Of a stretch of DNA of 64,000 bases, positions 1,237 through 55,475 are shown in pieces. Origin of the DNA: Aquipluma nitroreducens. GTDB taxonomy: Bacteria; Bacteroidota; Bacteroidia; Bacteroidales; Prolixibacteraceae. Position 1 is the first letter of the stretch, and each line of letters starts with the position of its first letter. The DNA is taken from NCBI RefSeq assembly GCF_009689585.1, contig NZ_AP018694.1, forward strand, positions 4,765,501-4,829,500, in the 5' to 3' direction. Position numbers and translations under genes: made by a program. Below the pieces are notes generated by a model that made no database searches, was not told the origin of the DNA, and worked only from the letters and a program-made list of their open reading frames with translations.

Positions 1237-1440
1237 TAAGCTTGAAATTGGCCCTTTTCGTGGTTATGCTACTAGTTGGTGGAATTCATGATTTTTATTT
1301 TGGCATGAAATCGATTGATGAATGCAACAATCATTAGGAAAGAAATTCAAATGTTAGCACGGTGGACCGGAATGCTTAATCTGTTGCTGGCCTTAATTAT
1401 TGCCTTTCTGGGCATTGCGATATCGCGAGGTGGATTCTGA
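1237..1440 (+). pseudogene. C-terminal fragment of a CopD-like membrane protein
   Basis: Immediately after the RND match stops, one frame reads LKLALFVVMLLVGGIHDFYF and a second frame, after a shift near 1320-1335, reads ARWTGMLNLLLALIIAFLGI and ends at the TGA at 1438-1440. Two hydrophobic helices, an HDFYFG motif and the R-W-x-G-x-L-N-L pattern resemble the C-terminus of CopD-like or DUF2269-like small membrane proteins. That assignment is from memory of the families. The 5' part of the gene is missing, replaced by RND sequence. The fragment lies just before the DUF2249 gene on the same strand and is probably the last part of the preceding gene of that operon. Confidence 0.55.
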
Positions 1441-1466
1441 AGTTTTGATAAATAAATTCTGGAAAA

Positions 1467-2282: not shown

Positions 2283-3559
2283 ATGAACCAGATAGCCAGC
2301 CAAAATGCCCCATCACCAAAGGTAGTTATTCCCCATTATGCTTTCGGGGGACTGACCTGGCTCGTGGTAACCCTGCTAATCGTATTTAATCCTGAAGCTT
2401 TCACACAACATTTTTTTAATCCTGAATTACTTGCCATAACCCACTTGTTGGTGTTGGGTTGGATTACCATGATTATTTTTGGAGCCTTGTACCAGTTGCT
2501 TCCGGTCATTATGGAAGTGAAATTATACAGCGAGCCATTTGCAATAGCTTCATTTATCTTGCTGGGCTTGGGTACTATTTTGCTGGCTTTCTCTTTCTGG
2601 CAATTTTCATTTGGTGCCATCATGTTTGTTGCGGCAACATGTGTTGTTGTGGCTGTTGGATTTTTGTTGCCAATGTATTGTTTACTGCACATTCTTCCAC
2701 TAAAAAAGTGATTGATAGAACCTTCATCATTACTTCAGTAATATGGCTGTTATTCACGGTGTTGGCCGGTTTAGCCCTGGCCATTAACCAGGTTCACCCG
2801 TTTTTGAAAACTTCGCAAATCGAACTGTTAAAACTGCATTCCCACGCCGGGATTGTTGGATGGTTTATTCAGTTGATTATTGGCGTCAGCAGTAAATTGT
2901 TGCCTATGTTTATGGTGTCTCACCACGTAAATACCAAGAAGTTAAGTGTTGCTTATTACGCTATTAATATTGGGCTGATTGCAGGACTCGTGTCGTTGTT
3001 TCTGCAGATGAAATTTGGTATCGTAATGAGTGCGATTATCATCGTGCCGGGTATTTTTAGTTACCTGTCATTTATTTATGAAGCCTATACAAAAAGGGTG
3101 AAAAAACAACTTGATATCGGGATGAAACAAACGGCCTTTTCCTTTTTGATACTGGTTATTCCATTCTTCCTGATTTTCACTCTTCTGTTTAATTTCGAAT
3201 TCCTGAACAACCTGACGCTACCCCTTTCAGTGGCTTATGGAAGTGCAATTGTAATTGGGTTTATTACTTCACTGGTCATGGGGCAAACATACAAAACCTT
3301 GCCTTTTATTGTCTGGCTGAAAGTCTATCGGGGGCGGATTGGGAAAGTGGTATTGCCCTTACCGAAAGACCTTTATTCTGAAAAAGTAGCCATTGCCCAG
3401 TTATGGCTTTTTGCTGCAGGGTTTGTTTTATTACTTCTCGGAATTTCAACAACTATTGTTAATCTATTGATTATGAGCGGTATTAGCCTGTTTTTGTCGG
3501 CCGCGCTTTATAACTTTAATCTGTTCAAAATCATATTTCATAAACCAGAAAATAAATAG
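2283..3559 (+). CDS. Multi-pass NnrS/haem-copper-oxidase-like membrane protein (frameshifted)
   Basis: The gene is read in two frames. Codons from 2283 end at TGA 2709-2711, and the frame one base back continues from GTG 2708 to 3559. Together they give about 425 residues with roughly ten to twelve hydrophobic helices. Histidines sit in membrane segments (LAITHLLVLGW, LLKLHSHAGIVGWFIQLI, MFMVSHHV), as in the NnrS and oxidase-subunit-I-like proteins found in NO and denitrification clusters. The precise family is uncertain. The break falls in an A6 run: one missing A explains it, and A AAA AAG is also a classic -1 slippery heptamer. It sits between the DUF2249 gene and the MIP18 gene on the same strand. 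Confidence 0.65.
2702..2711 (+). other. A AAA AAG slippery heptamer followed by UGA
   Basis: In the upstream reading frame the codons are CTA AAA AAG TGA. A AAA AAG is the heptamer used for -1 ribosomal frameshifting in dnaX and some insertion sequences. A -1 slip here enters exactly the frame that encodes the rest of the membrane protein. A plain one-base homopolymer error gives the same picture. I saw no obvious strong downstream stem-loop. Confidence 0.4.
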
Positions 3560-3566
3560 TTTCATT

Positions 3567-3875
3567 ATGAATACGGAAGAAAAAAATATTTTTGAATTGC
3601 TCAAAGGAGTTGTTGATCCGGAATTAATGGTAAACATTATTGATCTGGGATTAATTTATGGCGTGACTTATAATGAGCCGGAACATAAAATCGATATAGA
3701 TTTAACCCTCACCTCGCCCGGGTGCCCGATGGGCGGCTTGATCATTGAAGATGCCCAACAGTTGATCGAATCCAGTTATCCCAATTTTGAAGTCAAGATT
3801 AATCTTGTATGGGAACCCATGTGGTCAATTGAAAATCTTACAGAGGCAGGTAAAGAAGCTTTAGGCCAGATATAA
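3567..3875 (+). CDS. MIP18/DUF59-family iron-sulfur cluster assembly factor
   Basis: The 102-residue protein is a single MIP18 (DUF59) domain. Seen: the N-terminal acidic helix, VVDPELMVNIIDLGLIYGV, the SPGCPMGG motif with the conserved cysteine at about residue 53, and WEPMWSIENLT near the end. Relatives (PaaD, SufT, MIP18) help insert iron-sulfur clusters or mature metalloproteins. It begins eight bases after the frameshifted membrane protein and converges with narI. An assembly role for the neighbouring nitrate or NO enzymes is plausible but inferred. Confidence 0.85.
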   Translation: MNTEEKNIFELLKGVVDPELMVNIIDLGLIYGVTYNEPEHKIDIDLTLTSPGCPMGGLIIEDAQQLIESSYPNFEVKINLVWEPMWSIENLTEAGKEALGQI

Positions 3876-3881
3876 GATGCT

Positions 3882-4583
3882 TCAGGCTGGCCGTTTTGTA
3901 AATCCGCGCCTTACCAGTTGATAACCCGATCTGAAAAAATAAGCAAGCGGCATCACAAACATGTGCATGAGTTTCGTGTAGGGGAAAATCATAAAAATGA
4001 AAAGTCCCGTTACTATGTGCAATTTGTAAATAAGGCTATGTCCTGCAATTACTACACCTGCATCTGGTTGAAAAGTAATAACCTTTTGCGCCCATTCACC
4101 TAAAGCGGCATAGTTTTCAACGGAAGATCCGGCAGAAATGGCTACAGAGATCAACCCCAGTCCCATTTCAAATAAAAGCAAAGCGATCAAGAGGATATCC
4201 GCAATTGAACTGTTTATTCTGATCCGTTGGTCCTTAAGTCGCCTGACGAGAAGTATCGTTATTCCGACCACGGCGGCGGTGCCAAAAACAGACCCCATTA
4301 TAACTGCCAATATCTTTTTTGTTGCAGTGGTCATAAACAGGTGATAAAAATGTTCAGGAGTAAAAAGGCCCATAAAGTGTCCGATAAAAACCAGGATAAT
4401 GCCATAATGAAACAAATTGCCTCCCCATCGCTGGCCTTTCTTCGAGAGAAACTGGCTCGATTCAGCTTGTAATGATTTTGATGTTTTTACTATTCGAGTG
4501 ATAACACCAAACCAGAAAAGAGTCATGGCGATGTGTGGCAAATAGGTGAATAACAGGTTGTTGATATAATTATCCATAAACAT
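3882..4583 (-). CDS. narI: Respiratory nitrate reductase gamma subunit (cytochrome b)
   Basis: NarI anchors the NarGH dimer to the cytoplasmic membrane and passes electrons from quinol through two b haems. The 233 residues contain five hydrophobic helices. The four haem-ligand histidines fit the family: H59 and H69 in NLFHYGIILVFIGHFMG, H189 in YKLHIVTG and H207 in KLMHMFVMP. The C-terminal YQLVRRG matches the usual NarI tail. The ATG overlaps the narJ stop by one base (TAATG), which indicates translational coupling. It is the last gene of the leftward operon. Confidence 0.96.
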   Translation of the reverse strand: MFMDNYINNLLFTYLPHIAMTLFWFGVITRIVKTSKSLQAESSQFLSKKGQRWGGNLFHYGIILVFIGHFMGLFTPEHFYHLFMTTATKKILAVIMGSVFGTAAVVGITILLVRRLKDQRIRINSSIADILLIALLLFEMGLGLISVAISAGSSVENYAALGEWAQKVITFQPDAGVVIAGHSLIYKLHIVTGLFIFMIFPYTKLMHMFVMPLAYFFRSGYQLVRRGFTKRPA

Positions 4584-5212
4584 TATGATTTACAATTTAA
4601 ACAAGCATTTTCGTCTCCGAATGTTACGGGCTCTTCTTCGTAAGCTTCATCAATACTGATTTCAGGCATTTCTGTTTCCATTTTTTCAATCCGGGCTTCG
4701 GCGGGTTTGCGGCCAGATAATTTGATGATGGCAGATAAAAGATATTTATATGGATTGTCCTTATCTTCCAGCTTTTTGTGAATAAAGCCTACAATATCAA
4801 TAATCTCAGAAAGATAATCCATAGCCTTTGATTGCGTTTGCATGGCAAGGAATTCGAGAAATACAGGCAGATAATCAGGTAATTCCGGACGGTTTATATT
4901 TAATCCATTTTCATTGTAAAGACCGATCAGGTCAACCATGGCCTGACCGCGGTCTTTTGAATCGCCATGTACATGCTCAAACAGGTAAAGAGAAACCGAG
5001 CGCGAATAATCGAACAGTTGAACATAGTGCTCTTGCCAAAATGTCAGTGGCTTTTTTGCAAAAAAGTCAACAAAAATGTCTATTCCGGAAATGGCTTCGG
5101 CGTTCATCAAATTCTCCTCCTTAAGTGAAGAATTAACCTGAGGTAAAAAGTCATAAATTTCCTCGTTGGGATAAGTAATCAACAGCGAAATTATTTTATA
5201 AGTTTTCAGCAT
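4583..5212 (-). CDS. narJ: Nitrate reductase molybdenum cofactor assembly chaperone
   Basis: NarJ is the cytoplasmic chaperone that matures apo-NarGH before it docks on NarI. The 209-residue helical protein has the family features YPNEEIYDFLP, the YVQLFDYSRSVSLYLFEHVHGDSKDRGQAM core and a PDYLPVFLEFL motif. I chose the ATG at 5212 because it has a GGAGG ribosome site about nine bases upstream and lies directly after the narH stop. A TTG further upstream would overlap narH. The C-terminus ends in a short Cys-containing tail (CLNCKS), a small oddity. Confidence 0.94.
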   Translation of the reverse strand: MLKTYKIISLLITYPNEEIYDFLPQVNSSLKEENLMNAEAISGIDIFVDFFAKKPLTFWQEHYVQLFDYSRSVSLYLFEHVHGDSKDRGQAMVDLIGLYNENGLNINRPELPDYLPVFLEFLAMQTQSKAMDYLSEIIDIVGFIHKKLEDKDNPYKYLLSAIIKLSGRKPAEARIEKMETEMPEISIDEAYEEEPVTFGDENACLNCKS

Positions 5213-5213
5213 T

Positions 5214-6704
5214 TTACATTCCTCCAAATAAGTTTTTCAAACGACTTTCCATGCTGCCGCACCCTTCTCCATCACTGAACCCACACTCAGCCTTATCGCC
5301 AAAGGCATCAATAGCATATTCCTTATGTGACACGGGAATTACAAAGCGGTCTTCGTAATCGGCAATGGCCATGTAGCGGTACATCTCTTCGACCATTTCA
5401 GCCGTCAGGCCTGTACCAGATAATACCCCTTCATCTTCACTGTTTTCAACAGTTTTACTCCTCATGAACGCACGCATGGCCAGCATTTTTACCAATGCTT
5501 CCCTTACCGGCTTTTCATCGCCTGCAGTGAACATATTGGCCAGATATTTAACAGGGATACGCAGCATATCTACATCCGGAATAATGCCATTGAAACCCAG
5601 TTTTCCACTTTCAACTTCTTCCTGGATAGGCGATAAAGGCGGGGTGTACCAAACCATCGGTAAAGTTCGGTACTCGGGATGAAGTGGAAAAGCTACTTTC
5701 CACTCGACTGCCATTTTGTAAACAGGCGATTTTTGAGCTGCATCGATAAAATTATCGGGAATGCCTTGTTTGCGGGCTTCTGCTATAATTTCAGGATTAT
5801 GGGGATCAAGGAAAATACCGATATGGGATTGATACAAATCAACCGGATTTTCGGAAGAGGCTGATTCCTTGATTTTTTCGGCATCGTAAAGCATTACGCC
5901 GATATACCTGATTCTTCCAACGCAAGTTTCGCTACAGATAGTTGGTTCCCCGTTTTCAATCTTCGGATAACACAGCGTGCATTTCTCAGAACGTTTGGTT
6001 TTCCAGTTGAAATAGATTTTTTTGTATGGACAGGCGCTCACGCACTGACGCCATCCCCGGCAACGATCCTGGTCGATGAGCACAATGCCATCATCTTCAC
6101 GCTTGTAAATGGCACCTGAAGGGCAGGCCGCCACACAGGTCGGATTGAGGCAATGTTCGCACAGGCGCGGCAAATACATCATGAAGGCGTTCTCGAACTT
6201 GCTGTATATCTCTTTGTCAATGTCATCAAAATTCTTCTCTTTACTGCGTTCTTCAAATGCACCCCCCAGATCGTCTTCCCAATTTGGACCTTTCTCGATC
6301 TTCTCCATCGGAAGTCCGGTAATCATTGAATGAGGCCTGGCTGTAGGTGGTGTAGCAAACTTTCCAGATGAATGTAAAATACTGTAGTTGAAGGTGAACG
6401 GTTCGTAATAGTCATCGATCTGAGGTAAGTACGGATTTGAAAAAATGTTTTTCATGATACCTGTCTTATTCCCCATACGCGGACGAAGCTTCGATTTATC
6501 GAGTACCCAGCCACCCTTCCATTTGTCCTGATTTTCCCAGTCGGTGGGATAACCCTGTCCTGGTTTAGTTTCAACATTATTAAACCAGGCATATTCCATC
6601 CCTTTGCGGGTTGTCCATACGTTTTTACAGGTAACCGAACAAGTATGACAGCCAATACATTTGTCGAGGTTTAATACCATTGCAATTTGAGCCTGTATTT
6701 TCAT
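5214..6704 (-). CDS. narH: Respiratory nitrate reductase beta subunit
   Basis: NarH carries four iron-sulfur clusters that wire electrons from NarI to NarG. The 496 residues hold the expected cysteine groups: CIGCHTCSVTC near the N-terminus, CEHCLNPTCVAACP at about 185, CRGWRQCVSACPYKK, in which a Trp replaces one Cys and so specifies a 3Fe-4S centre, and CTLCYPKIENGEPTICSETC. Length is usual for the family. There is no Tat signal, so the protein faces the cytoplasm as in classical Nar. It is 22 bases from narG and one base from narJ. Confidence 0.97.
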   Translation of the reverse strand: MKIQAQIAMVLNLDKCIGCHTCSVTCKNVWTTRKGMEYAWFNNVETKPGQGYPTDWENQDKWKGGWVLDKSKLRPRMGNKTGIMKNIFSNPYLPQIDDYYEPFTFNYSILHSSGKFATPPTARPHSMITGLPMEKIEKGPNWEDDLGGAFEERSKEKNFDDIDKEIYSKFENAFMMYLPRLCEHCLNPTCVAACPSGAIYKREDDGIVLIDQDRCRGWRQCVSACPYKKIYFNWKTKRSEKCTLCYPKIENGEPTICSETCVGRIRYIGVMLYDAEKIKESASSENPVDLYQSHIGIFLDPHNPEIIAEARKQGIPDNFIDAAQKSPVYKMAVEWKVAFPLHPEYRTLPMVWYTPPLSPIQEEVESGKLGFNGIIPDVDMLRIPVKYLANMFTAGDEKPVREALVKMLAMRAFMRSKTVENSEDEGVLSGTGLTAEMVEEMYRYMAIADYEDRFVIPVSHKEYAIDAFGDKAECGFSDGEGCGSMESRLKNLFGGM

Positions 6705-6726
6705 AATCTAATGAGTATTAAACGTG

Positions 6727-9700
6727 TTAATGTTTTACTTCTTCGTCTTTCCATTCCACTTTCTTCAGTTTGCGGACGACCACAAACTCGTCACGGTTTG
6801 ATCCGATGGTTCCGTAATAATTGAATCCATATGACAATTGAGCATATCCGCCAATCATGTGTGTTGGCTTCAGGCATAATCGCTCTACGGAGTTATGCAC
6901 ACCGCCGCGATTACCCGTTAACTGACTAATCGGCATATTTACAGTTCGTTCCTGGTTGTGATACATGATCAGTGCACCGACAGGAATCCGCTGAGATACA
7001 ATCAGCCTAGCTACGGATGCTCCGTTGCTGTTAAAGACTTCAATCCAGTCATTGTCTTTGAGTCCAATGCTGGCGGCATCTGTTTCGCTCATCCAGGCTA
7101 CCGGACCTCCGCGGCCTAGTGTGAGCATGACTAAATTGTCAGACCACGAAGAATGGATGGTCCATTTATTATGAGGTGTCATAATGTTTATGACCATGTA
7201 CTCGTCCTCCTTTTCCGCTTTACCTAGTACTTCAAGAATTGATTTGGTGTTGATAGGCGGTTTGTAAGTGACCATATTCTCCCCAAATGCAATCATCCAC
7301 GGATGATCCTGATAAAGGGTTTGCCGTCCGGTGAGTGTTCGCCACGGGATCAGTTCATGCACATTGGTATAACCAGCATTGTACGATACCTTTTCGGAAT
7401 CGATGCCGCTCCATATAGGAGAAGTGATGATCTTTCGAGGTTGCGAAAGCAGGTCGCGATAACGTATTTTTTCCTCCTCGCGGCCTAAAGCCAGATGCGT
7501 GTGTTTGCGTCCTGTAATTGCTTCCAGCGCTTTCCAGGCTTTCATGGCAACCGCGCCATTGGTCTCAGGAGCCAGAGAAAGAATAACCTCAGCAGCCTGA
7601 ATGTCCGTTTCAATCTTCGGAAGACCTTTGGTTTCACCTTCTTCACTTTTGGTATTATTAAGGAGTGCAAGCAGGTCTATTTCGGCCTCTGTGTTCCAGT
7701 TAATTCCTTTACCACCATTGCCCAGAGTCTTCATCAGTGGCCCCAGACTGGTGAACCGATTGTAAGTTTCCGGATAATTACGTTTCAGAGTGATTATTTT
7801 TGAGAAGTTGATTCCGGGCTTTATTTCTAAATCCGAATTTTTCCAATCTTTTGCGTCGGTAGTCTCCGATAACTCCATCGGAGTATCGTGTTGAAGCGGA
7901 AGCAATACAATGTCAGTCTCGTTGTCAAGATGTCCTTTAGCCAGTATTGAAAATTTTTCTGCCAACCCTTTAAATATATCCCAATCTGTTCGGGATTCCC
8001 ATACAGGATCAACTGCCCGTGAAAATGGATGAATAAATGGGTGCATGTCGCTGGTACTCAGATCGTTTTTTTCGTACCACGAAGCGGCCGGAAGCAAAAT
8101 GTCTGAATGCAATCCGGTGGTTGACATCCTGAAATCGAGGCTTACCAGCAGATCAAGCTTTCCTTCCGGGGCATCGTCGTGCCATTTGACTTCGGAAGGT
8201 AAGGTCTGTCCCAATTCTTTCAGATCGTTGCCCTGAACGCTATTTTGTGCTCCCAGCAAGTGCTTCATAAAATATTCCATTCCTTTTGCGCTTGACCCCA
8301 ACAGGTTCGATCTCCAAACAAAAAGGTTGCGCGGGAAGTTGGCTGGATTGTCGGGATCTTCGGAGGCCAAAGTCAGTTTCCCGCTTTTTAATCGCGAAAC
8401 CACATATTCTTCTGAAGTCACACCTGCAGATTCTGCTTCTTTGGCAATTGTTAACGGATTTTTGCTCAGTTGCGGAGCACTCGGTAACCAACCCATGCGC
8501 TCTGCGCGAACATTGCAATCGATGAGTGAAAGATTTTCCCATTCCGACTTATTGGTAAGAGGAGAAAGCAATCCGTTTAGTTTCACTTTCTCATACCTCC
8601 ATTGGTCAGTGTGCATATACATGAATGAGGTGGTATTCATTTGCCTTGGCGGACGGTTCCAGTCGAGGGCAAATGCCAGTGGTAACCAACCTGTCTGAGG
8701 CCTGAGTTTTTCCTGACCAACGTAATGAGACCAACCACCGCCCGACTGGCCGACACAACCACAAAATACCAGCATGTTGATAGCGCTCCGGTAAATCATA
8801 TCAGTATGATACCAGTGGTTGACTCCGGCCCCGATAATAATCATTGACTTTCCTTCGGTAGCCGCCGCATTCTCAGCAAATTGTCTGGCGGTAGAGATGA
8901 TGTGTTGAGCTGGAACTCCGGTAATTTTTTCCTGCCATTTTGGAGTAAAAGGCAGGTCCTCGTCATAGCTTTTTGCTGAATTCGGGGCATCAAAACCACG
9001 GTCAATTCCATAGTTGGCAACCATCAGGTCGAATACAGTGCAGGTATAAATTTCACCCTGAATGGTTTTGATTTTTCTGACCGGCACTTTGCGTTCAATA
9101 ATATCGTCGTGGCCTGTTGCCGAAAAATGTTCGTGTTTAAAAGTCGAGCCTCCAAAATAAGGGAACTGCACATGAATCACTTCATCATGCTTTTCAAAAA
9201 GTGAAAGTTCAGGAATAATATCGGCGCCGGTTTTGCTGTCCTTTAGCTCGAGATTCCATTTTTGTTTTTTCTCCCATCGCGATCCGATCGTCCCGTTTGG
9301 CACCACATAGTTGCCCGACAGTTCGTCGAGTAAAACAGGTTTCCATTCCGATTTTTCACCTATAACGGGCATATTTTTAAGATCACTGGCCCTGAGAAGA
9401 GTTCCACTCATATATTTCCCGTCTTTTTTCTCAATCTTAACCAGAAAAGGCAAATCAGAATATTGACGGGCATATTTCTCAAAATAGGGTGTTTTTTTAT
9501 CCAGATAAAACTCTTTCAGGATCACATGTCCCATGGCCATACCCAAAGCAGCATCGGTGCCTTGTTTGGGTTTCATCCATAAATCGGCAAATTTAACGGC
9601 ATCGCTGTAGTCGGGGGCAATAACGATCGATTTTGTCCCTTTATAGCGAACCTGAGTATAGAAAGGAGAATCAGGTGTGCGTGTAAGCGGAACATTAGAT

Positions 9701-10458
9701 CCCCAGAGCATCAGGAATGATGAGTTGTACCAATCAGCGCTTTCAGGAACATCGGTTTGCTCTCCCCATGTTTGTGGCGATGCCGGTGGCAGATCGCAAT
9801 AGAAATCATAGAAACTTAGCACGGTTCCTCCGATTAGGCTCAGGTAGCGCGTGCCGGCCGCATAAGAAACCATCGACATGGCAGGAATAGGGGAGAACCC
9901 TGCAAGTCGATCGGGACCATAAGTTTTTATCGTATAAATATTTGCAGCTGCAATGATTTCGTTTACTTCATCCCATTCGGCACGAATAAAACCTCCCAGA
10001 CCACGTGCTGCTTTATACTGCTTTGAAATTACCGGGTTGCTGACTACTGCTTCCCAGGCTTTTACCGGGTCGGAGAGGCGAGCCTTTGCTTCCTTATATG
10101 CAGTCAGCAATTCTCCGCGGATCATGGGATACTTAACCCGGTTTGCACTATATAGGTACCATGAATAACTGGCGCCCCGAGGACAACCGCGCGGTTCGTG
10201 ATTGGGCATTCCCGGCCGTGTACGTGGATAGTCGGTTTGCTGGGTTTCCCAGGTCACAAGCCCATTCTTTACAAATATTTTCCACGAGCAGGATCCTGTA
10301 CAGTTTACTCCATGAGTGGAGCGAATAACCTTATCGTGCTGCCAGCGATTACGGTACATACGCTCCCAATCGCGATTTTCACTTGTAATTGCGAGGTGTT
10401 TGTCTTTGGTTTTTTCTACTTCTTTGCTGAAATAAAAAAGTTTATTTAACAGGCTCAT
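6727..10458 (-). CDS. narG: Respiratory nitrate reductase alpha subunit (molybdopterin catalytic subunit)
   Basis: NarG reduces nitrate to nitrite at a bis-MGD molybdenum centre. The 1243-residue protein has the N-terminal FS0 cluster ligands H49, C53, C57 and C92 (THGVNCTGSCSWK and EPRGCPRG). It also has CDLPPASPQTWGEQTD, with D222 at the position of the molybdenum-ligand Asp, YNSSFLMLWGSNVPLTRTPD, and the C-terminal molybdopterin-binding domain (TVNMPISQLTGNRGGVHNS). No twin-arginine signal is visible, so it belongs to the cytoplasm-facing Nar type. Length matches the family, and no premature stops or shifts occur over 3.7 kb. It lies 71 bases downstream of the TDT channel gene. Confidence 0.98.
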   Translation of the reverse strand: MSLLNKLFYFSKEVEKTKDKHLAITSENRDWERMYRNRWQHDKVIRSTHGVNCTGSCSWKIFVKNGLVTWETQQTDYPRTRPGMPNHEPRGCPRGASYSWYLYSANRVKYPMIRGELLTAYKEAKARLSDPVKAWEAVVSNPVISKQYKAARGLGGFIRAEWDEVNEIIAAANIYTIKTYGPDRLAGFSPIPAMSMVSYAAGTRYLSLIGGTVLSFYDFYCDLPPASPQTWGEQTDVPESADWYNSSFLMLWGSNVPLTRTPDSPFYTQVRYKGTKSIVIAPDYSDAVKFADLWMKPKQGTDAALGMAMGHVILKEFYLDKKTPYFEKYARQYSDLPFLVKIEKKDGKYMSGTLLRASDLKNMPVIGEKSEWKPVLLDELSGNYVVPNGTIGSRWEKKQKWNLELKDSKTGADIIPELSLFEKHDEVIHVQFPYFGGSTFKHEHFSATGHDDIIERKVPVRKIKTIQGEIYTCTVFDLMVANYGIDRGFDAPNSAKSYDEDLPFTPKWQEKITGVPAQHIISTARQFAENAAATEGKSMIIIGAGVNHWYHTDMIYRSAINMLVFCGCVGQSGGGWSHYVGQEKLRPQTGWLPLAFALDWNRPPRQMNTTSFMYMHTDQWRYEKVKLNGLLSPLTNKSEWENLSLIDCNVRAERMGWLPSAPQLSKNPLTIAKEAESAGVTSEEYVVSRLKSGKLTLASEDPDNPANFPRNLFVWRSNLLGSSAKGMEYFMKHLLGAQNSVQGNDLKELGQTLPSEVKWHDDAPEGKLDLLVSLDFRMSTTGLHSDILLPAASWYEKNDLSTSDMHPFIHPFSRAVDPVWESRTDWDIFKGLAEKFSILAKGHLDNETDIVLLPLQHDTPMELSETTDAKDWKNSDLEIKPGINFSKIITLKRNYPETYNRFTSLGPLMKTLGNGGKGINWNTEAEIDLLALLNNTKSEEGETKGLPKIETDIQAAEVILSLAPETNGAVAMKAWKALEAITGRKHTHLALGREEEKIRYRDLLSQPRKIITSPIWSGIDSEKVSYNAGYTNVHELIPWRTLTGRQTLYQDHPWMIAFGENMVTYKPPINTKSILEVLGKAEKEDEYMVINIMTPHNKWTIHSSWSDNLVMLTLGRGGPVAWMSETDAASIGLKDNDWIEVFNSNGASVARLIVSQRIPVGALIMYHNQERTVNMPISQLTGNRGGVHNSVERLCLKPTHMIGGYAQLSYGFNYYGTIGSNRDEFVVVRKLKKVEWKDEEVKH

Positions 10459-16714: not shown

Positions 16715-19700
16715 ATGAACATTACAAAAATAGCAATCAATCGTCCATCGCTGATCATCGTTCTTTTCAGCGTATTCGCCCTGTTGGGGATCATTGGATT
16801 TACAAACCTGGGGTATGAACTGTTGCCAGACTTCAACCAGCCGGTGGTAGTAATAAAAACAATGTATCCGGGTGCCGAACCCAATGAAGTAGAAACCTCT
16901 GTTTCCAGAAAAATAGAGGACGCCTTATCGAATCTCGAAGGTGTCGATTATTTGGAGACCAAGTCGATGCCCAATGCTTCCGTTATTATTGCCAACCTAA
17001 AATACGGAACGAACCTGAGCATTGCCATGCAGGATGCCCAGCGGTATATCGACAATATTAAAAAAGATCTACCGGCAGACATTTTGAGTCCGGTGATGAC
17101 CAAGGTTTCGCCCAACGATTTACCCATTATATCGATCAGCGCAACAAGTCGCTTGCCTGCTACAGAGTTTTATCAAAAAATGAAAGATGAGTATCTTCCA
17201 CAAATTCAGCAATTGAAAGGGGTGGCAGAAATTACTCTGCTTGGCGGAGAAGAACGGGAAATTCAAGTGAAGGCTGATCAGGATAAACTGAAACTGTACA
17301 AAATATCACTATATCAGGTTGTAGAGGCCATTAACCGCTCAGGAATTGATTTGCCTGCCGGTAAAGCGCAAACTGATAAAGAAAGTAATTCAGTTCGTCT
17401 GACAGGAAAGTTTTCGAACGTAAATGATATCATGAATGTTCAGGTAGCTATGCCTGGGCCGGGAATGCCGGTTTATGTAAAAGATGTGGCAACTGTTATT
17501 GATGGGGTAAAAGAAATAAGTTCGGTTAGCCGTTACAATGGCGTAAACGGAATAGGTCTTTTATTGAAAAAACAAGGCGATGCCAACGCGGTAGAAGTTT
17601 CAAAATTAGTCCACACGAAACTCAAACAAATTGAAAGTGCAAACTCCAACTACGGGGTGAAATTTGATGTTGCCGATGATTCAACCGACATGACCATTGC
17701 GGCAGTAAATTCAGTAGTCGATGACCTGATTCTGGCTGTAATCCTGGTTTCATTGGTTATGTTCCTGTTTTTACGAAGCTACCGGAACTCTTTGATCGTA
17801 TTAATTGCAATCCCGACCTCATTAATTACCGCGTTTGCAGTTATGTGGCTGATGGGCTTCACCTTAAACCTGATGACCTTGCTGGCCATGTCGTTAATTA
17901 TCGGAATCCTGGTGGATGATGCCATCGTAATTCTGGAAAACATTCAGCGACACCTCGATATGGGAAAAGACAAGGAAACCGCGGCATTGGAAGGGCGTAT
18001 GGAAATTGGATTTTCAGCCATTTCAATTACGCTGGTCGATGTGGTTGTATTCTTACCGATTCTGTTTTTGCAGGTATTTGTAGCCGATATGCTGAAACAA
18101 TTTTCAATCGTTGTAATAACATCAACACTTACCAGCTTATTGGTGGGTTTTACCTTGGTGCCATGGCTAGCTTCACGAATAGGCAAAAAGGAAGATTTAC
18201 AACCGACCAACTTCATGAACCGTTTTTTGCTTTGGTTCGAAAAACAATTAACAACATTCATCGATTGGTACGGACGTCAGTTAGAATGGGTTCTTAGCCA
18301 TAAACTTATTTTTTCCGGAATCGTTATTTTCCTTTTGGTAATGACGGGGGTGATGATGAAACAAGGCATTATCGGAAAAGAAATGATGTCGACCGGAGAT
18401 CAGGGAAAGTTTCGTTTGAATCTGGAATATGATAAAACTACAACCGTTCAGGAAAACAATATCAGAACGCAACGAGTTGAAAACTTTATCCTTCAGCAAC
18501 CTGAAGTAGCTACACTTTTCAGCAACATTGCCGGGCCAAGCACAGGTATCGGAAGTTTAGGGGTGGGCTCTGCCAATATCTCGGAATTTACCATTCAGCT
18601 AAAACCTGAAAAGGAAAGAGACATCAAAACTGAAGCGTTTATGAAATCGCTTCGCGAAGAGTTGAAAAAGCAATTTACGGGAGTTAACTTTTCAATGGCA
18701 GTTTTAGGCTTACTGCCAAAACAGGCGCCCATCAAAATAACCCTGAGCGGAAGCGACCTGAATTTGGTAATGAAAACAGGAAATGAACTGAAAGCGGCTA
18801 TTGAGAAAATACCAGGCGCCGATAATGTTCAATTGTCGGTAGAAGAAGGAAGCCCTGAATTCAAGGTGATTCCCGACAAAGATAAGATGCAGCGATTGGG
18901 ATTAACAACTGCCTATGTCGGGTTGAATTTAAGGACAGCCTTTACGGGAAACGATGATGCCACATTAACCGAGAATGGAACAGAATATCCGGTAAGGATA
19001 TGGCTGGATGATTTTGACCGGAAAAACTTTGAAGACGTGCAGCGTATTTCCATCGTAAACCCAATGAACATTCCCATTGAAGTATCTCAGTTTGCTGAAG
19101 TCAGGCAAGACAATTCGCCTTCGTTGCTCGAAAGACTGGACCGGCAACCTTCTGTAACCATTACTTCAGAATCGTTTGGAAGACCTTCAGGAACGCTGGC
19201 TGATGAGGCAATCAGCTTTCTGAAAACGCAACCGTTGCCCGAAGGGGTAAAATTAACCTGGGGGGCAGATATCAAAACGCAGAATGAAAGTTTCGGGGCT
19301 TTGGCTTCGGTTCTTATCATCTCATTTATACTTATTTACCTGATCATGGTAGCCCTCTATGATAGTTACATTTATCCGTTTGTGGCTCTATTTGCCATAC
19401 CGATGGCTGCTATTGGTGCATTCCTTGCCTTAAACTTATCGCTAAACCATCTGACTCTGTTTGCACAGTTAGGATTAATCATGCTTATGGGGCTGGTAAC
19501 AAAAAATGCCATCCTGATTGTAGATTTTACCAACCAGCTAAAAGCCCAGGGCAAATATTATAAAGAAGCATTGATCATTGCAGGGAAAGAGCGTATGCGC
19601 CCTATTTTAATGACAACTCTGGCTATGGCAATTGGAATGTTGCCCATTGCATTGGCACGAGGTACAGCCAGCGAGTGGAAAAACGGTTTGGCATGGGTGA

Positions 19701-37299: not shown

Positions 37300-38055
37300 T
37301 CAAATCTGCTTATGCCGAACGCTATAGCTAATGCCAAATAGCAATAACAGCGCAATGATTGCTGGTAGCGCCAGAAAAAGCAAACCTAATCCGGGAGTAT
37401 TCTTTCCCGTTTCAGGATTGTAATTAAAACAGGAGAATAATTGATTCTTAGCTGGCAACCGATATGAAGGAGAAAAAACATCGTTGACACTTCTGATCAA
37501 TAATTCAAGATCTGATTTATTTCTCATGCCAATCAGTTTTTTCGTGATATAACCTTCTTTATTAACGCCAACCAGTAGGGCATCATGATCATACTGGCTC
37601 CGGATGCTGTCCCATAAAGGGTTGAACCCTACCGACAGGTTCAGTTTTTCAATGTCGCCGGTGGTCGCAAAAAGCCATTGTTTATTATTTCCAAGGTTAA
37701 GACCTTTCGACAGGTTTATCATATCCTCGCGGGTGTCTCTGGGATCGAAGCTAAGTACTAAAACGCTAAAGTTCCCAGTATCGGTTTTAAATTGCAGATT
37801 TTCTTTTAATTGTAAGAGAAATGGGTTGCAAATGCCTGAACATCTTGTGAAAATTAAAGCTAAAATAACTGGTTTTATGGCAGATAGCTGAGTCAGAGTT
37901 CGATAATCTCCATTGTTTAAGTTTAATTTTGCATCATAAACTTTTTCGTAGATATTGTTTTCTTCCTCAAACCCGGTTGAGGCAATTTGAGCTACGGCTA
38001 ACTGATTAAAGAAAAAACTTAATGCTAGGAAGCAGAAAATAAAATGTTTAAACAT
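37300..38055 (-). CDS. Sco/SenC-family copper chaperone
   Basis: The 251-residue protein has a signal peptide and a thioredoxin-like Sco domain with the copper-binding CSGIC pair (C72 and C76) and the distal His (YDHDALL, H156). A C-terminal membrane helix follows. Sco proteins deliver copper to the CuA centre of haem-copper enzymes. The gene overlaps the end of the subunit I gene by 31 bases and is cotranscribed with it. A second Sco gene lies at 40088, so two copper chaperones serve one enzyme. Confidence 0.9.
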   Translation of the reverse strand: MFKHFIFCFLALSFFFNQLAVAQIASTGFEEENNIYEKVYDAKLNLNNGDYRTLTQLSAIKPVILALIFTRCSGICNPFLLQLKENLQFKTDTGNFSVLVLSFDPRDTREDMINLSKGLNLGNNKQWLFATTGDIEKLNLSVGFNPLWDSIRSQYDHDALLVGVNKEGYITKKLIGMRNKSDLELLIRSVNDVFSPSYRLPAKNQLFSCFNYNPETGKNTPGLGLLFLALPAIIALLLLFGISYSVRHKQI

Positions 38056-39464
38056 CGTTTACATATTTGAAAGAAAAAGATAAGAATTGCCGCTAAATAT
38101 ATGGTAGCAAACACGGCTGCCCCAATTGCTAACGGCACTGCCATCGGAAATTCAGCAGGATAATTACTGTACCTGCGAGGTATTGATTCCGCTCCGCCAA
38201 TATAAAAGGCCATAAGGAAGCCTATTCCGCCAATCAGGAGCAGTGTTATTTTTAATTTCGTTAATTTCTCGGAGTTGGTATTTTCGGAGAATTGAATTGA
38301 AAACCAATGGAAGAATGCCAGGCTGAACAGCACGTTGCCCAACGCGTTATAGGTGTGAAAATGCGCGGGAACCCATAGGGTATTGTGAAGAACAAAATTA
38401 TTTGTGATCGTTACATCAATAACGGCCCCCAATCCGCCAATAACCCATCCGGCCACACCGATAAAAAACAGTAGATTCGTTAGCGACCATTTTATGGGTG
38501 TTCGATAAACGGCTACCAACACGCTGAATACGGTAACCCCGGCAGCAGGCAAACTGGCCATGTAAGACGCAATTTGTCCAATAATCTGGAATCCAACCGG
38601 CTGAACAAAGTCCATGTATAAATGATGGAAAAAGGCGGTTAGTATAAATACCAGGGTACAGTTCCAGGCCAGGGAAATATACCAGGTGGTTTTCCATTTT
38701 GGTCTTCCGCCCACTTCCGAAAATAATTCGTAAATCACCGCCAGTCCTAAATAGAGCATTTCATTGGCAATGGTGTGACCAAAAAAGTAAGTGAGGTTTT
38801 TCATCAGCAAAGCGTCATTAACAAACGCGCCATTCGAATAATATTCGGCGGCATACATTGCAAGCAGCAGCACAGCCCCCAGCAGGCAGGCTACAATTCC
38901 AATCAGCGTAATCATCGAGATCAGGATAAAAGGAGGTGTTTGAATGGTTGGATTTTTCCTGAAATATTGCCAGGCCAAAGCTTTGGTTAGTGGGTATTTC
39001 TTCAGTGTTTGGGTCATCATACTCACTGCCCAGGTTAACCAACCAACGCCCATCACTAAAATAGAACCCAAAAACATGGGAGTTGCCCATTTGGCCCACA
39101 TAATTTTAAGCGGCAATGGATAAAGGAAGGTCCAACCCGCATGGAAATTTCCAATGTAAGTTGAAGTCCACAGCATTAGAATTCCAGTTACTGTAAGTAC
39201 CATGGCCACAACGTTGGCCAAATAGCTGGTTTTTAAATATCGTTCCATCAAATAGTTGATACCGGCCATCCCCGCAACAAACCAAATACCTATTTGGGTA
39301 AGTCCGTGTGTTGTCATGTGAGCATAGAAAGTTGCGGGTTGCTCATGGATTATTTCCCCTTGATTCAGACGCATGAGTATGCCCAACACAATGTTTACAA
39401 TGAATAAGAAAAGAACCGTTATAATCCAGAGTGAGGTGATTTTTCTCAATTTTATGGTTTCCAT
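38025..39464 (-). CDS. Haem-copper oxidase subunit I, NO-reductase-like active site
   Basis: The 479-residue protein has about twelve membrane helices. All haem and CuB histidines are visible: low-spin H53 (HMTTHGLTQ), CuB H230 (YFFGHTIANEM), H280/H281 (FFHHLYMD) and H368/H370 (VPAHFHTYNAL). Four residues after H230, where O2-reducing oxidases have the cross-linked Tyr (H-x3-Y), there is Asn234, followed by Glu235. Tyr loss and a nearby acidic residue are seen in NO reductases of this superfamily. The closest overall pattern is B-type. O2 reductase activity is therefore doubtful and NO reduction plausible. Sits between a CuA subunit and a Sco gene. Confidence 0.85.
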   Translation of the reverse strand: METIKLRKITSLWIITVLFLFIVNIVLGILMRLNQGEIIHEQPATFYAHMTTHGLTQIGIWFVAGMAGINYLMERYLKTSYLANVVAMVLTVTGILMLWTSTYIGNFHAGWTFLYPLPLKIMWAKWATPMFLGSILVMGVGWLTWAVSMMTQTLKKYPLTKALAWQYFRKNPTIQTPPFILISMITLIGIVACLLGAVLLLAMYAAEYYSNGAFVNDALLMKNLTYFFGHTIANEMLYLGLAVIYELFSEVGGRPKWKTTWYISLAWNCTLVFILTAFFHHLYMDFVQPVGFQIIGQIASYMASLPAAGVTVFSVLVAVYRTPIKWSLTNLLFFIGVAGWVIGGLGAVIDVTITNNFVLHNTLWVPAHFHTYNALGNVLFSLAFFHWFSIQFSENTNSEKLTKLKITLLLIGGIGFLMAFYIGGAESIPRRYSNYPAEFPMAVPLAIGAAVFATIYLAAILIFFFQICKRCLNILFSAS

Positions 39465-39470
39465 AATTCT

Positions 39471-40022
39471 CTATTTAATAGTTAAGGAGGCTCGCATGAC
39501 CTGATGTGCCATTCCACAATATTCAAGACATAAAATGGTATAGTTTCCAGGCTCTTTAAATTTCCATCGCAAGCAGTTTACATATCCTGGCATTGCCTGA
39601 GTCTGGGCAATTAACCTGTTAGATTGATCGTATATTGCAAAGCCATGGTTTACATCCAGGCTGGTTACTCTAAATTCGACCAGCTTGTTTGCAGGCAATT
39701 CGATGGAAGCTTCTCCCACAGGATTTTTAGGATCTATTGCTTTGTCAGACATTAAGAAAGTAAATTGCATGGCCGACACATGTATTACACGGGCAGGGGT
39801 CTCATCTGAAAAAAGAAAATAGGGCGAACGGGGAATTGTAACCGACGCGAAAATACCCAGAATCACAAACAGGATTAGTAAAAACCAAAATCTTGTTCTT
39901 AATGGGTTGCGTATCCCTTGATCATCTTTTCCGGCTTTTTTAGAAGAAAGATATACGAAGGTGAAAACCAACGTGCTCATACCTGCTAAAACCAAAAATA
40001 ATATTAGAATTGAATTCTGCAT
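39471..40022 (-). CDS. Haem-copper oxidase subunit II with CuA centre
   Basis: The 183-residue protein has two membrane helices and a cupredoxin domain. All CuA ligands are present: H126 (DVNHGF), then C165, E167, C169, H173 and M176 in CLEYCGMAHQVM. It therefore takes electrons from a cytochrome c, probably the one at 40708. It lies six bases before the subunit I gene. An intact CuA site next to a subunit I without the oxidase Tyr is unusual, since classical cNOR uses a haem c subunit. Confidence 0.92.
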   Translation of the reverse strand: MQNSILILFLVLAGMSTLVFTFVYLSSKKAGKDDQGIRNPLRTRFWFLLILFVILGIFASVTIPRSPYFLFSDETPARVIHVSAMQFTFLMSDKAIDPKNPVGEASIELPANKLVEFRVTSLDVNHGFAIYDQSNRLIAQTQAMPGYVNCLRWKFKEPGNYTILCLEYCGMAHQVMRASLTIK

Positions 40023-40087: not shown

Positions 40088-40705
40088 TTACTTCGGAAAC
40101 TGTTCATTTAAAAGGGTTCTCAGATCAGCAATCAAACGTTCCGTCTCTTTTGGGATTGTTCCGTCATACACGCCACGAATGTGTTTGTGGGTGTCAACCA
40201 ACAAAAGGCCGCCACTGTGAATATAATTACCGGGAGACGATTTGTCAGGGTAGGCCGTTGCAAAATAGCTGTTTTCCGCCATCGAATAAATGCTGTCTTT
40301 TTCTCCGGTTACAAAAAACCATTTATGGCCATCGACCCCCAGAGCTTCAGCAAATGATTTTAGCCTTGGTATTGTATCATTTTCAGGATCAATGGTGTGC
40401 GACAGAAAGAAGATATGCGGATTTGTTTTAAATGCTTCATATACTTTTTTCATTTCACTGGTCATAATCGGACATATAGAAGTACAGGAAAGAAATATGA
40501 AATCGGCAACATATATTTTATCGTCGAAGGTTTTCCCGGTAACCACAGCACTATCCTGACTTAAAAATGTGAATGGTTTAATCGTAGAATATATAGTATC
40601 GTTGCCTGTTATGATTGGGTGCCCAATGATTGGCAATTTCTTTTCGGTGTTTGCACAACCAGCCAGAAGCAAGGCAATTATTAAAATATTCAGGATATTT
40701 TTCAC
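40088..40705 (-). CDS. Sco1/SenC-family lipoprotein
   Basis: The 205-residue lipoprotein (lipobox at LLAGCANT, C17) has the Sco fold with CTSIC (C74 and C78) and YIHSGGLLLV (H163). The family shuttles copper, or reduces CuA cysteines, for haem-copper enzymes. It is two bases downstream of the cytochrome c gene and 65 bases upstream of the CuA subunit gene, so it is probably the CuA maturation factor. Confidence 0.92.
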   Translation of the reverse strand: MKNILNILIIALLLAGCANTEKKLPIIGHPIITGNDTIYSTIKPFTFLSQDSAVVTGKTFDDKIYVADFIFLSCTSICPIMTSEMKKVYEAFKTNPHIFFLSHTIDPENDTIPRLKSFAEALGVDGHKWFFVTGEKDSIYSMAENSYFATAYPDKSSPGNYIHSGGLLLVDTHKHIRGVYDGTIPKETERLIADLRTLLNEQFPK

Positions 40706-40707
40706 GA

Positions 40708-41136
40708 TTACTTAATTGAAAGAATATAGTCAACTATTGCGTCTAATTCTTCAGCAGACAATGCTTTTGTAATGGCTATTTGTGGTTGCATCACGCTGGA
40801 TTGAGATGGATCAACAATGGATTTGCCTTCACCTTTCAAATAAGCTGTTAAACCCGCTTTGTTTCCTGAATAAGCCGCTGCAATATCTTTAACAGCCGGA
40901 CCAACCAGTTTTTTGTTCAATTGATGGCAAACCAGGCACCCTTTGTCTTTATACAGTTTTTCTCCGTATCCGACTGTTGCAGAAGCTACCTGGGTATTTT
41001 TTTCTTCAGGTGTTGCTTGTTCCGGATTGCTTGTTTGTACTGTTTCGGTACTTTTTTGATTATCCTTTTTCGGTGAGCTGCATGATGCGGCCATTATTAA
41101 AACCAAACTAATTGCGATTAAAGTTTCTTTTTTCAT
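40708..41136 (-). CDS. Class I c-type cytochrome, lipoprotein
   Basis: The 142-residue protein has a lipoprotein signal (IMAASCSSPKK), a charged linker, and a single-haem domain with CLVCHQ (C67, C70, H71) and the axial Met in SVMQPQ (M116). It is the likely electron donor to the CuA subunit encoded two genes downstream. Its ATG overlaps the end of the UspA-transaldolase ORF by four bases, coupling the two. Confidence 0.92.
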   Translation of the reverse strand: MKKETLIAISLVLIMAASCSSPKKDNQKSTETVQTSNPEQATPEEKNTQVASATVGYGEKLYKDKGCLVCHQLNKKLVGPAVKDIAAAYSGNKAGLTAYLKGEGKSIVDPSQSSVMQPQIAITKALSAEELDAIVDYILSIK

Positions 41137-53022: not shown

Positions 53023-53155
53023 AGGCTCTTTGGGTTGTTCTCCGGTGAAATTCGGGTAACAACTTTCGTTTCCGGTTGTTTTATAGAAAAACTTCAGAAT
53101 AAATGCTGAGTGCCCCGACAGGATAGAGTAAAAAACAGATAAAACCTAAACCGTG

Positions 53156-54478
53156 ATGGATGATTTTCTTGCCGCGAGGCTACAAATGACTGTTTCTTTT
53201 GTGTTTCACATTGTATTTGCCTGTATCGGGATGACGATGCCCTGGCTGATGTTTGTAGCCGAATTAAAATGGATAAAAACAGGAAGTAAAGTATATCTGG
53301 ACCTGTCGAAGGCATGGGCTCGGGGAGTCGCTATTTTCTTTGCCGTCGGTGCAGTTTCGGGCACTGTTTTGTCGTTCGAGCTTGGACTGCTTTGGCCAAA
53401 ATTTATGGAACATGCCGGAGCCATTATTGGGATGCCTTTTAGCTGGGAGGGAACGGCTTTCTTTCTCGAAGCAATTGCTTTAGGGGTATTCCTTTATGGT
53501 CGGGACCGGGTTAACAAACGGGTGCATCTGTTCTCTGGTATTTTGGTTGGAATTGCAGGTGTGGTGTCGGGTATATTTGTGATAGCGGCCAATGCCTGGA
53601 TGAACAGTCCCTCCGGATTTGATTGGGTCAATGGTCAGGCAATCAATATTGATCCGGTGAAAGCGATGTTTAACAAGGCCTGGTTTCAGCAGGCACTACA
53701 CATGACCATTGCAGCCTTTGCATCCACCAGTTTTGCAGTGGCAGGAGTTCATGCCTTTATGCTGCTTCGTCACAAAGGAAATGAGTTTCATCGGGGTGCA
53801 ATACAAATTGCCCTTTTGTTTGGAGCAGTTGCAGCCATTCTACAGCCTATAAGTGGCGATATTTCAGCCAAAAATGTAGCGAAGCTTCAGCCAGCAAAAT
53901 TTGCTGCTATGGAATCTTTGTTCAAAACCTCAGAACCCGCAGCATTGGTAATTGGCGGTATTCCTGATGAAGAGAAAGAGGAAGTTAAATATGGTATTCA
54001 TATTCCGCACTTACTAAGCTTTTTGGCTCATGGAGATCCAAACGCCGAAGTTGAAGGACTGGATAAAACCAGTAAGGAAAACTGGCCTCCGGTTGCCATT
54101 GTGCATTTTGCTTTTCAAATCATGATATTTATGGGCGTACTGATGATGGGAACGGGTATTTTGTTCCTGATTTTCAATTTTAAATGGAAGGAGAATCTGA
54201 ATAAACGTTGGTGGCTTAAATTGTTGGTTTGGCTCACTCCGGTTGGATTTATTGCAGTGGAAGCGGGTTGGATTGTAACGGAAGTTGGCCGTCAACCCTG
54301 GATTATTTACGGAATCATGAAGACCAAAGATGCGGTGACACCGATGCCGGGTGTGCAGTATCCGTTTTTCCTGATCACACTGATTTACCTGGCGCTTACG
54401 TTCCTGGTTTTTATACTGATGCGTCGTCAAATTACGGCTGTCCATACAAATCCTCAAAATATAAATAGTCATGACTGA
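53156..54478 (+). CDS. cydA: Cytochrome bd-type quinol oxidase subunit I
   Basis: The 440-residue protein (start ATG 53156, after GTG at 53153) has the CydA pattern: DDFLAARLQMTVSFVFHIVF, with a haem His at residue 18, then PWLMFVAE and FAVGAVSGTVLSFELGLLWP. GMPFSWEGTAFFLEAIALGV and QALHMTIAAFASTSFAVAGV follow. It binds the quinol and the b/d haems. The Q-loop is short, as in CIO-type oxidases. bd oxidases keep working in the presence of NO and at low oxygen. It overlaps cydB by eight bases. Confidence 0.95.
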   Translation: MDDFLAARLQMTVSFVFHIVFACIGMTMPWLMFVAELKWIKTGSKVYLDLSKAWARGVAIFFAVGAVSGTVLSFELGLLWPKFMEHAGAIIGMPFSWEGTAFFLEAIALGVFLYGRDRVNKRVHLFSGILVGIAGVVSGIFVIAANAWMNSPSGFDWVNGQAINIDPVKAMFNKAWFQQALHMTIAAFASTSFAVAGVHAFMLLRHKGNEFHRGAIQIALLFGAVAAILQPISGDISAKNVAKLQPAKFAAMESLFKTSEPAALVIGGIPDEEKEEVKYGIHIPHLLSFLAHGDPNAEVEGLDKTSKENWPPVAIVHFAFQIMIFMGVLMMGTGILFLIFNFKWKENLNKRWWLKLLVWLTPVGFIAVEAGWIVTEVGRQPWIIYGIMKTKDAVTPMPGVQYPFFLITLIYLALTFLVFILMRRQITAVHTNPQNINSHD

Positions 54479-55475
54479 CCTCGTTATCATTGTTTTAGGC
54501 ATTGCCGTTTTGTTTTACGTGCTACTTGGCGGTGCCGATTTTGGTGCCGGAATTGTAGAATTGGTTACCGGGAAGAGAGGCATTGATACAATTTCGAAAG
54601 CGATTGCTCCGGTCTGGGAAGCAAATCACATCTGGCTCATTTTGGTGGTTGTGATTTTGTTTAATGGATTTCCGCTTGTATATACCACCCTTACGACTTA
54701 TTTACATATACCTCTGTTTATTATTCTACTTGGAATTATTTTCCGAGGAACGGCTTTTACTTTTCGGTATTACGACACCGTTGAGGAAAATATGCACAAA
54801 TATTACACGCAATTATTCCGGATATCGAGTTTGTTGACTCCTTTCTTTCTGGGCGTGACGCTAGGAGCTATTATGTTGGGGAAAATTCCGGCGCAGGTTG
54901 ACGGAACCTTTTATGCAATTTTTATCGCACCCTGGTTAAATCTGTTTTCGTTTACAACCGGTATTTTTCTGACCCTTTTGTTTGGCTGCCTGGCAGCTAT
55001 TTATCTGCTGGGTGAAGCCCGGGATGACGAATCGTTTCAGACATTTGCCAAAGCATCGCGCACCTTTTTTGTTCTGTTGGTAACTTCGGGGTTGAGTGTT
55101 TTTCTGGTGTCAGAAATGTACGAATTGAATTTCTTCAGCAGATTTCTTCACTCTCCGGTAGCGATGGGATGTGTGCTCATAGCTACCGTAATTATCCCTT
55201 TTTTATGGGTCGGGATACGACACCGGAATAATTTGCGGACAAGGTTTCTTGCTGGCGTGCAAACAGCTTGCATCTTAACCGGGTGGTTTGCCATTCAATT
55301 TCCGGTCATGATTTACCTGGCCGATGGAACAGCCCTGACGATACAGAATAGTCAGGCTCCCGAAAGAACTATGTCTTTATTGGTGTATGCCCTAATTGCA
55401 GGTATATTGCTCATATTTCCTGCGTTTGCCTATCTGTTTAAGGTATTCAAGTTCAGTCAAAATAAACAGAACTAA
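54471..55475 (+). CDS. cydB: Cytochrome bd-type quinol oxidase subunit II
   Basis: The 334-residue protein has about eight membrane helices and the CydB motifs YVLLGGADFGAGIVEL, VWEANHIWLILVVVILFNGF and FRGTAFTFRYYD. It pairs with CydA to form the oxidase core. The ATG overlaps the cydA stop (ATGACTGA arrangement), so translation is coupled. Length fits the short CIO-like form. Confidence 0.95.
   Translation: MTDLVIIVLGIAVLFYVLLGGADFGAGIVELVTGKRGIDTISKAIAPVWEANHIWLILVVVILFNGFPLVYTTLTTYLHIPLFIILLGIIFRGTAFTFRYYDTVEENMHKYYTQLFRISSLLTPFFLGVTLGAIMLGKIPAQVDGTFYAIFIAPWLNLFSFTTGIFLTLLFGCLAAIYLLGEARDDESFQTFAKASRTFFVLLVTSGLSVFLVSEMYELNFFSRFLHSPVAMGCVLIATVIIPFLWVGIRHRNNLRTRFLAGVQTACILTGWFAIQFPVMIYLADGTALTIQNSQAPERTMSLLVYALIAGILLIFPAFAYLFKVFKFSQNKQN

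Follow-up and report, generated by a model that had tools for sequence, protein, structure and literature searches.

A putative sNOR-type nitric oxide reductase in Aquipluma nitroreducens and an Asn-Glu subclade of its family

The family of nitric oxide (NO) reductases (NORs) known as sNOR is a known but poorly characterised part of the haem-copper superfamily, to which the locus described here adds a member. Table A4 of PMC8756737 gives Asn as its residue at the place of the cross-linked Tyr and lists it in Betaproteobacteria, Silicibacter, Deinococcus and Geobacillus, and one sNOR each is reported from Candidatus (Ca.) Methylomirabilis oxyfera and Ca. M. lanthanidiphila (PMC6094997). Whether sNOR acts on NO or on O2 is disputed in print. 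We analysed a 64,000-nucleotide stretch of Aquipluma nitroreducens (the window; NZ_AP018694.1, positions 4,765,501 to 4,829,500), taken from a genome of 5.71 Mb in one contig, and found a minus-strand operon which, to judge from its sequence, probably encodes an sNOR, that is, a two-subunit CuA nitric oxide reductase of the haem-copper superfamily. The locus is of interest for the dispute over sNOR function and for an invariant Asn-Glu signature that marks a Bacteroidota-rich subclade of the family.

Active site and family assignment

Subunit I retains histidines 53, 230, 280, 281, 368 and 370, and its helix VI reads FFGH(230)TIAN(234)E(235). In alignments to solved cytochrome c oxidases, GH230 falls on GHPEVY, H280-H281 on the HH pair and H368-F-H370 on HFH, so that N234 takes the place of the Tyr in GHPEVY; in this helix the A- and B-type oxidases examined have HPxVY. 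By position, H53 and H370 are ligands of the low-spin haem, H368 of the high-spin haem and H230, H280 and H281 of CuB, where H53, which lies outside the alignments to solved oxidases, is presumed to be a haem ligand from its position and its invariance. Asn occupies the place four residues after the first CuB histidine (H+4) in 94 of 94 family members examined, a count taken after removal of 16 sequences (seven copies or fragments of already counted genes of the window genus, seven weak hits in relatives, a broken reading frame, L028, and a truncated extraction, L108). These seven weak hits (L012-L018, 24-27% identity) were not treated as sNORs; five of them, all but L014 and L018, whose motif was unread, carry the A-type GHPEVY. 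At the place where C-type oxidases carry their cross-linked Tyr, six before HH, family members have Val or Ile (91/91, the HH being missed by the pattern in three), while all three C-type sequences checked, including the C-type subunit of the same genome, have Tyr. Comparison of the window gene with two homologues of the same genus indicates mostly silent differences (135 of 190 changed codons for L031, 130 of 175 for L030), which together with the invariance of Asn implies that Asn234 is due neither to chance nor to sequencing error. The CuA ligands of subunit II are complete (H126, C165, E167, C169, H173 and M176), its best match is to ba3 CuA domains, and the motif is intact in 57 of the 58 subunit II proteins from loci in which Glu follows the Asn (Asn-Glu loci). 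The preliminary description of this DNA had pointed out the full set of haem and CuB histidines, the Asn234-Glu235 pair in place of the cross-linked Tyr and a complete CuA site in the partner, all of which are confirmed by the open reading frames (ORFs), the alignments and the family-wide count.

A maximum-likelihood tree of 69 sequences gathers all 43 Asn-bearing sequences in one clade (support 100/100), apart from the A-type (9 sequences, 100/100), B-type (5, 99/95) and Gln-bearing eNOR (4, 100/100) groups and also from the C-type (4) and cNOR/qNOR (3) sequences. The 24 sNOR sequences of a second tree (48 sequences, L130 left out) again form one clade with support of 100/100. L130 itself, a 581-residue haem-copper subunit of Ca. 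Methylomirabilis (G498 contig 161), reads SHSALY at helix VI and stands alone on a very long branch. The sNOR clade includes SPO_RS20755 of Ruegeria pomeroyi, which we take to be the Silicibacter of the published sNOR list, a Ca. Methylomirabilis isolate (L080) with 54% identity to the window subunit I, and a genome carrying an ammonia monooxygenase (AMO)-family gene, whose order is that of a Rhodocyclaceae bacterium. The choice of these anchors followed organism names or the presence of an AMO-family gene instead of published accessions; the AMO-family search anchored one of seven genomes, and as the AMO Pfam family also spans methane monooxygenase, that genome is an ammonia oxidiser only by inference. 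In a tblastn search of plasmids, the best named matches came from Ruegeria pomeroyi (E 6e-54; 33% identity across 86% of the query), Thermomicrobium roseum and Parasedimentitalea marina. When named genome contigs were scanned, 482 relatives were found, of which the best 80, ranked by likeness to the window, were kept; the nearest of these 80 is a subunit I from a Prolixibacteraceae metagenome-assembled genome (95% identity).

The window thus combines the features of sNOR, namely Asn for Tyr, the six histidines, a CuA subunit II, a linked SenC/SCO gene and a place in one clade with sNOR carriers. The phylogeny which the preliminary description had proposed as a check sets the enzyme outside the O2 reductases, with no Tyr at either the A/B or the C place, and its suggestion of a NO reductase from a little-studied family agrees with the sNOR clade and the published Asn residue, the activity itself being predicted. 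Other classes were rejected by the residue at the Tyr place. The A-, B- and C-type O2 reductases would have a cross-linkable Tyr at H+4 or six before HH, and the window lies outside all three clades. For cNOR and qNOR, Glu is expected (as in HLWVE of this genome's own qNOR-type protein) and the clade is separate. gNOR, for which Table A4 of PMC8756737 gives Asp, was rejected by this signature alone. eNOR is expected to carry Gln, and the Gln-bearing sequences (L116, L126, L136 and L155) form a clade of their own. The last of these, from Thermus thermophilus TTHNAR1 plasmid 4 (L155 2339-4024), is named a 'cbb3-type oxidase subunit I', has the eNOR Gln signature (GHGAQQ) and adjoins an Rrf2 regulator and a DUF542 protein.

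The Asn-Glu subclade

All 19 sequences with Glu after the Asn fall in one clade of the 69-sequence tree (100/100), a group whose defining residue is one of the alignment columns behind the trees. Among the best 80 of the 482 loci, 64 of the 79 that could be classified are Asn-Glu, 15 carry something other than Glu after the Asn and one is unreadable (L108), a share which is not a census given the ranking by likeness to the window. In an alignment of 42 sequences, Glu235 is present in 30/30 Asn-Glu sequences and Ile or Leu in 12/12 others, and Asn355, Asn373, Phe380 and Trp387, among other residues, also separate the two sets; Ruegeria and six further sequences (L145-L150) have Ala or Ser, so that the residues seen after Asn in other sNORs are Ile, Leu, Ala or Ser. 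By record name, 54 of the 64 Asn-Glu loci belong to Bacteroidota, and the other ten to Ignavibacteria (2), Kapabacteria (2), Methylomirabilis, Acidobacteria, Verrucomicrobiota, Dadabacteria, Binatia and the unplaced 'Bacterium HR21'. This mostly Bacteroidota subclade with its invariant pair appears to be new: no mention of an Asn-Glu signature was found in the literature searched, where no search was aimed at that signature itself. Within the window genus, 5 of the 23 genomes searched (its own included) carry subunit I, one of them with an internal stop. One same-genus homologue (G004 contig 335; L011/L019/L041) has a stop and a frame break near residue 400, reflecting either decay or an assembly error. 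Across the phylum, 6 of 394 other genomes have a match at E 1e-20 or better, one with Asn-Glu (L020) and five with Asn followed by Ile, Leu or Ala.

That every Asn-Glu sequence retains this Glu within a membrane helix implies that it has a function. An ideal helix would set Glu235 100 degrees away from Asn234, so that it need not face the active site, and this lends no support to direct contact. Glu235 in the subclade, and Tyr238 and Tyr245 in the family at large, may participate in proton delivery. That the subclade is a chemically distinct type of sNOR, in which Glu235 and Asn234 deliver protons in the manner of the Glu of cNOR and qNOR, with altered proton delivery and perhaps with energy-conserving NO reduction, is a speculative proposal that we think rather improbable. 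Asn-Glu enzymes occur in two apparently cultured strains, Gelidibacter japonicus Bio7-1 and Cerina litoralis F89, making the question of NO or O2 as substrate testable.

Substrate and origin of the enzyme

Read as an sNOR, the enzyme would accept electrons from cytochrome c at the CuA of subunit II and pass them by way of the low-spin haem (H53/H370) to the centre of high-spin haem (H368) and CuB (H230, H280, H281), at which 2 NO + 2 e- + 2 H+ would yield N2O + H2O; the Sco proteins would load copper. NO reduction takes only two electrons, so that the redox Tyr employed in splitting O2 would be dispensable and Asn234 could stand in its place. NO as the substrate, this electron path and copper loading are all predictions from sequence, with conversion of NO to N2O, rather than O2 respiration, as the most likely activity. 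The gene neighbourhoods bear on the same question: 14 Rrf2 genes lie within ~5 kb of Asn-Glu loci (in 12/64 loci; 0.42 expected) and ScdA-type genes within this distance of 8/64 loci (0.28 expected). This clustering favours a connection with NO stress, with P values that overstate certainty because the loci are related, the 14 background genomes were picked by hand out of the same set, and blastp was used to search the loci but hidden Markov models to search the genomes. The preliminary description had called the region rich in NO-related genes, and the window does hold a DUF542/hemerythrin (ScdA-type) gene, two Rrf2 genes, a DUF2249 gene and, by eye, Nar genes, but none adjoins the operon, the distances being ~8-9 kb for the ScdA-type gene and the nearer Rrf2 gene, ~25 kb for the second Rrf2 gene and ~27 kb for the Nar genes.

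Several observations weigh against an sNOR that reduces NO. Rrf2 or ScdA-type neighbours occur near only 14/64 Asn-Glu loci; no assay of a purified sNOR was found in the literature searched; the Methylomirabilis anchor is a different isolate from the one with the published Damo_0801-0802; the tree was built from sequences other than bNOR and gNOR, and bNOR also has Asn; and published accounts conflict on proton channels and electrogenicity, Table A4 of PMC8756737 listing sNOR as lacking a proton channel and PMC8906906 describing it as electrogenic. Moreover, sNOR may be a high-affinity oxidase, as proposed in PMC6967387 from the 2.7-10.8-fold induction of the sNOR genes of Nitrosomonas europaea under O2 limitation, a source that also cites indirect NOR evidence in Nitrococcus. 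Tyr238, at H+8 and four residues past Asn234, is kept in 93/94 family members, as is the Tyr at 245, and on an ideal helix both are on the same side as His230 and Asn234, where they could serve in a proton path or as a redox Tyr of a non-classical kind. The window enzyme would then be an O2 reductase of high affinity, functioning with no classical cross-linked Tyr or with Tyr238 instead, and any NO turnover would be a side activity of the kind seen in the ba3, caa3, bo3 and cbb3 oxidases, which also reduce NO slowly (PMC8780969). We consider this unlikely, as neither cross-link place has a Tyr (Asn in 94/94 at the A/B place, Val or Ile in 91/91 at the C place), the redox-active Tyr is described as conserved across all cytochrome c oxidase types (PMC8079940), sNOR falls outside the A, B and C clades, and the genome already encodes A-type and C-type oxidase subunits.

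A derivation from B-type oxidases, as sister to or arisen from them, is compatible with the sNOR assignment and had been suggested by the preliminary description, which spoke of a possible NO reductase of a 'B-type-derived' family. Subunit II is closest to ba3 CuA domains and sNOR has been labelled B-type in print (PMC11388526, PMC6967387), but the trees lend this origin no support: sNOR forms its own long branch, the B-type oxidases form a group with eNOR that excludes it (100/99), and approximately unbiased (AU) tests reject clades of sNOR with B-type oxidases alone (p 0.0016) and of sNOR with eNOR (p 0.0015). The best tree has sNOR as sister to B-type plus eNOR with a support of 20/0, its place relative to this group and to the A-type being weakly supported, and we regard a B-type origin as possible though doubtful. 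Far less probable still is that the locus encodes bNOR, the other Asn-bearing CuA NOR (qCuANOR type I of Bacillus azotoformans). bNOR likewise has Asn where the Tyr would be, and it too has a CuA subunit (PMC3475470; PMC8756737, Table A4), but its subunit I is ba3-like and ~570 residues long (size from PMC3475470) as against 479 here, which is near the published anatomy of type II (1482 bp, 12 transmembrane helices (TMH), two-TMH subunit II) and not that of type I (1707 bp, 13 TMH; PMC3475470). The window also groups with sNOR carriers, in a tree without any bNOR sequence. Searches of plasmids for a bNOR sequence found none, the sequences read (of L109-L112 and L153-L157) being Tyr-bearing A- or B-type enzymes, among which the Geobacillus plasmid gene is a Tyr-bearing B-type oxidase, or the Gln-bearing L155.

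Locus, genomic context and comparison with known systems

The operon is transcribed in the order cytochrome c, SCO1/SenC, CuA subunit II, haem-copper subunit I and Sco-like membrane protein (Table 1), in agreement with the preliminary description, which had named two Sco proteins and a cytochrome c as neighbours; the SCO1/SenC and cytochrome c genes lie upstream and the Sco-like gene downstream, overlapping the 3' end of the subunit I gene by 31 bases. The SCO1/SenC protein probably serves CuA assembly, and the mono-haem cytochrome c is a probable electron donor to the CuA enzyme. The Sco-like protein has no match in Pfam, NCBIfam or PHROGs and its closest solved sequence is 3me7 (E 1.8e-5). 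In an NCBIfam scan, subunits I and II matched only below cut-off and the SCO proteins had no match, and single-sequence hydropathy gave no clear count of helices in subunit I. Subunit II, subunit I and Sco genes stand in a row in 51/64 Asn-Glu loci and 6/15 other loci, and homologues of the Sco-like protein are present in 59/64 Asn-Glu loci.

Table 1. Features of the putative sNOR operon (window coordinates)
Feature	Coordinates	Strand	Evidence
Putative sNOR catalytic subunit I (NorY-like), 479 aa	38025..39464	-	Intact ORF; Pfam COX1, E 4.3e-49; alignments; tree
Asn234 and Glu235 codons (Asn234 38765-38763; Glu235 38762-38760)	38760..38765	-	ORF translation
CuA subunit II (NorS-like), 183 aa, two N-terminal hydrophobic segments	39471..40022	-	ORF; Pfam COX2, E 7.8e-7
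CuA loop, C165-L-E167-Y-C169-G-M-A-H173-Q-V-M176	39495..39530	-	Motif; H126 lies nearer the N-terminus
Sco-like membrane protein (CSGIC, His157, C-terminal hydrophobic segment)	37300..38055	-	Motif; weak Sco similarity
SCO1/SenC protein	40088..40705	-	Pfam PF02630, E 6.7e-23
Mono-haem cytochrome c (CLVCH), lipoprotein-like N-terminus (by eye)	40708..41136	-	Pfam PF00034, E 4.2e-11

In addition to the putative sNOR, the genome encodes a protein of qNOR type (L003) and two oxidase subunits I, one A-type (L001) and one C-type and cbb3-like (L002), and by eye the window contains a bd oxidase (53153-55475) and Nar genes (3882-10458). Searches of the genome gave no match to NirS, nothing over the curated cut-off for NirK (one match below it, 22.7 bits) or NosZ (two CuA-domain matches below it, one of which is the subunit II described here), and for the NrfA family a single weak match just above cut-off (26.1 bits). 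Given the lack of NirS and of NirK and NosZ matches over cut-off, a part in complete denitrification is unlikely, and the enzyme is likely to serve in NO detoxification or opportunistic NO respiration, in which case N2O would leave the cell. As annotation labels sNOR genes cytochrome c oxidase (PMC11388526), that of Ruegeria included, their carriers can be missed as NO reducers and the N2O output of Bacteroidota may be under-counted.

Elsewhere in the window, positions 1-1236 repeat 17339-18583 (99.3% identity, 9 gap openings, 0 mismatches) and positions 1237-4501 repeat DNA ~16 kb upstream (L005; 3 gap openings, 0 mismatches), a pattern of indels without substitutions that suggests faulty assembly more than an ancient duplication. 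A protein with a weak COX1 match, NnrS-like by eye, is a single 425-residue frame in L005 and is split over two frames in the window copy (2283-3559).

Among other CuA- or cupredoxin-bearing NORs, eNOR resembles the window enzyme as a two-subunit cupredoxin NOR of the same superfamily and differs in having Gln at the Tyr place (PMC8756737) and in grouping with B-type oxidases in our tree. bNOR shares Asn for Tyr, CuA and SenC with the window (PMC3475470) and differs in its longer, 13-TMH subunit I and in being reported from Bacillota only (PMC11388526, PMC3475470). By published anatomy alone, qCuANOR type II of Bacillus azotoformans and Geobacillus (PMC3475470) has in common with it the Asn, a short 12-TMH subunit I, a two-TMH CuA subunit II and a linked SenC.

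The closest described systems are the sNORs (NorSY) of Ruegeria (Silicibacter) pomeroyi DSS-3, ammonia-oxidising bacteria and Ca. Methylomirabilis, with which the locus shares Asn for Tyr, the six histidines, a short subunit I, a CuA subunit II, an adjacent SCO/SenC gene and membership of one clade (100/100). Identity to the window subunit I is 33% for Ruegeria and 54% for the Methylomirabilis locus, and the latter also has Glu after the Asn, where the other sNORs seen have Ala, Ser, Ile or Leu. The Ruegeria locus has subunit II, subunit I and SCO in a row as in the window, together with a formate/nitrite transporter and an Rrf2 regulator, but its cytochrome c gene is 2 kb further on whereas that of the window is upstream. 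The cytochrome c and second SCO genes ahead of subunit II set the window genus apart from these systems.

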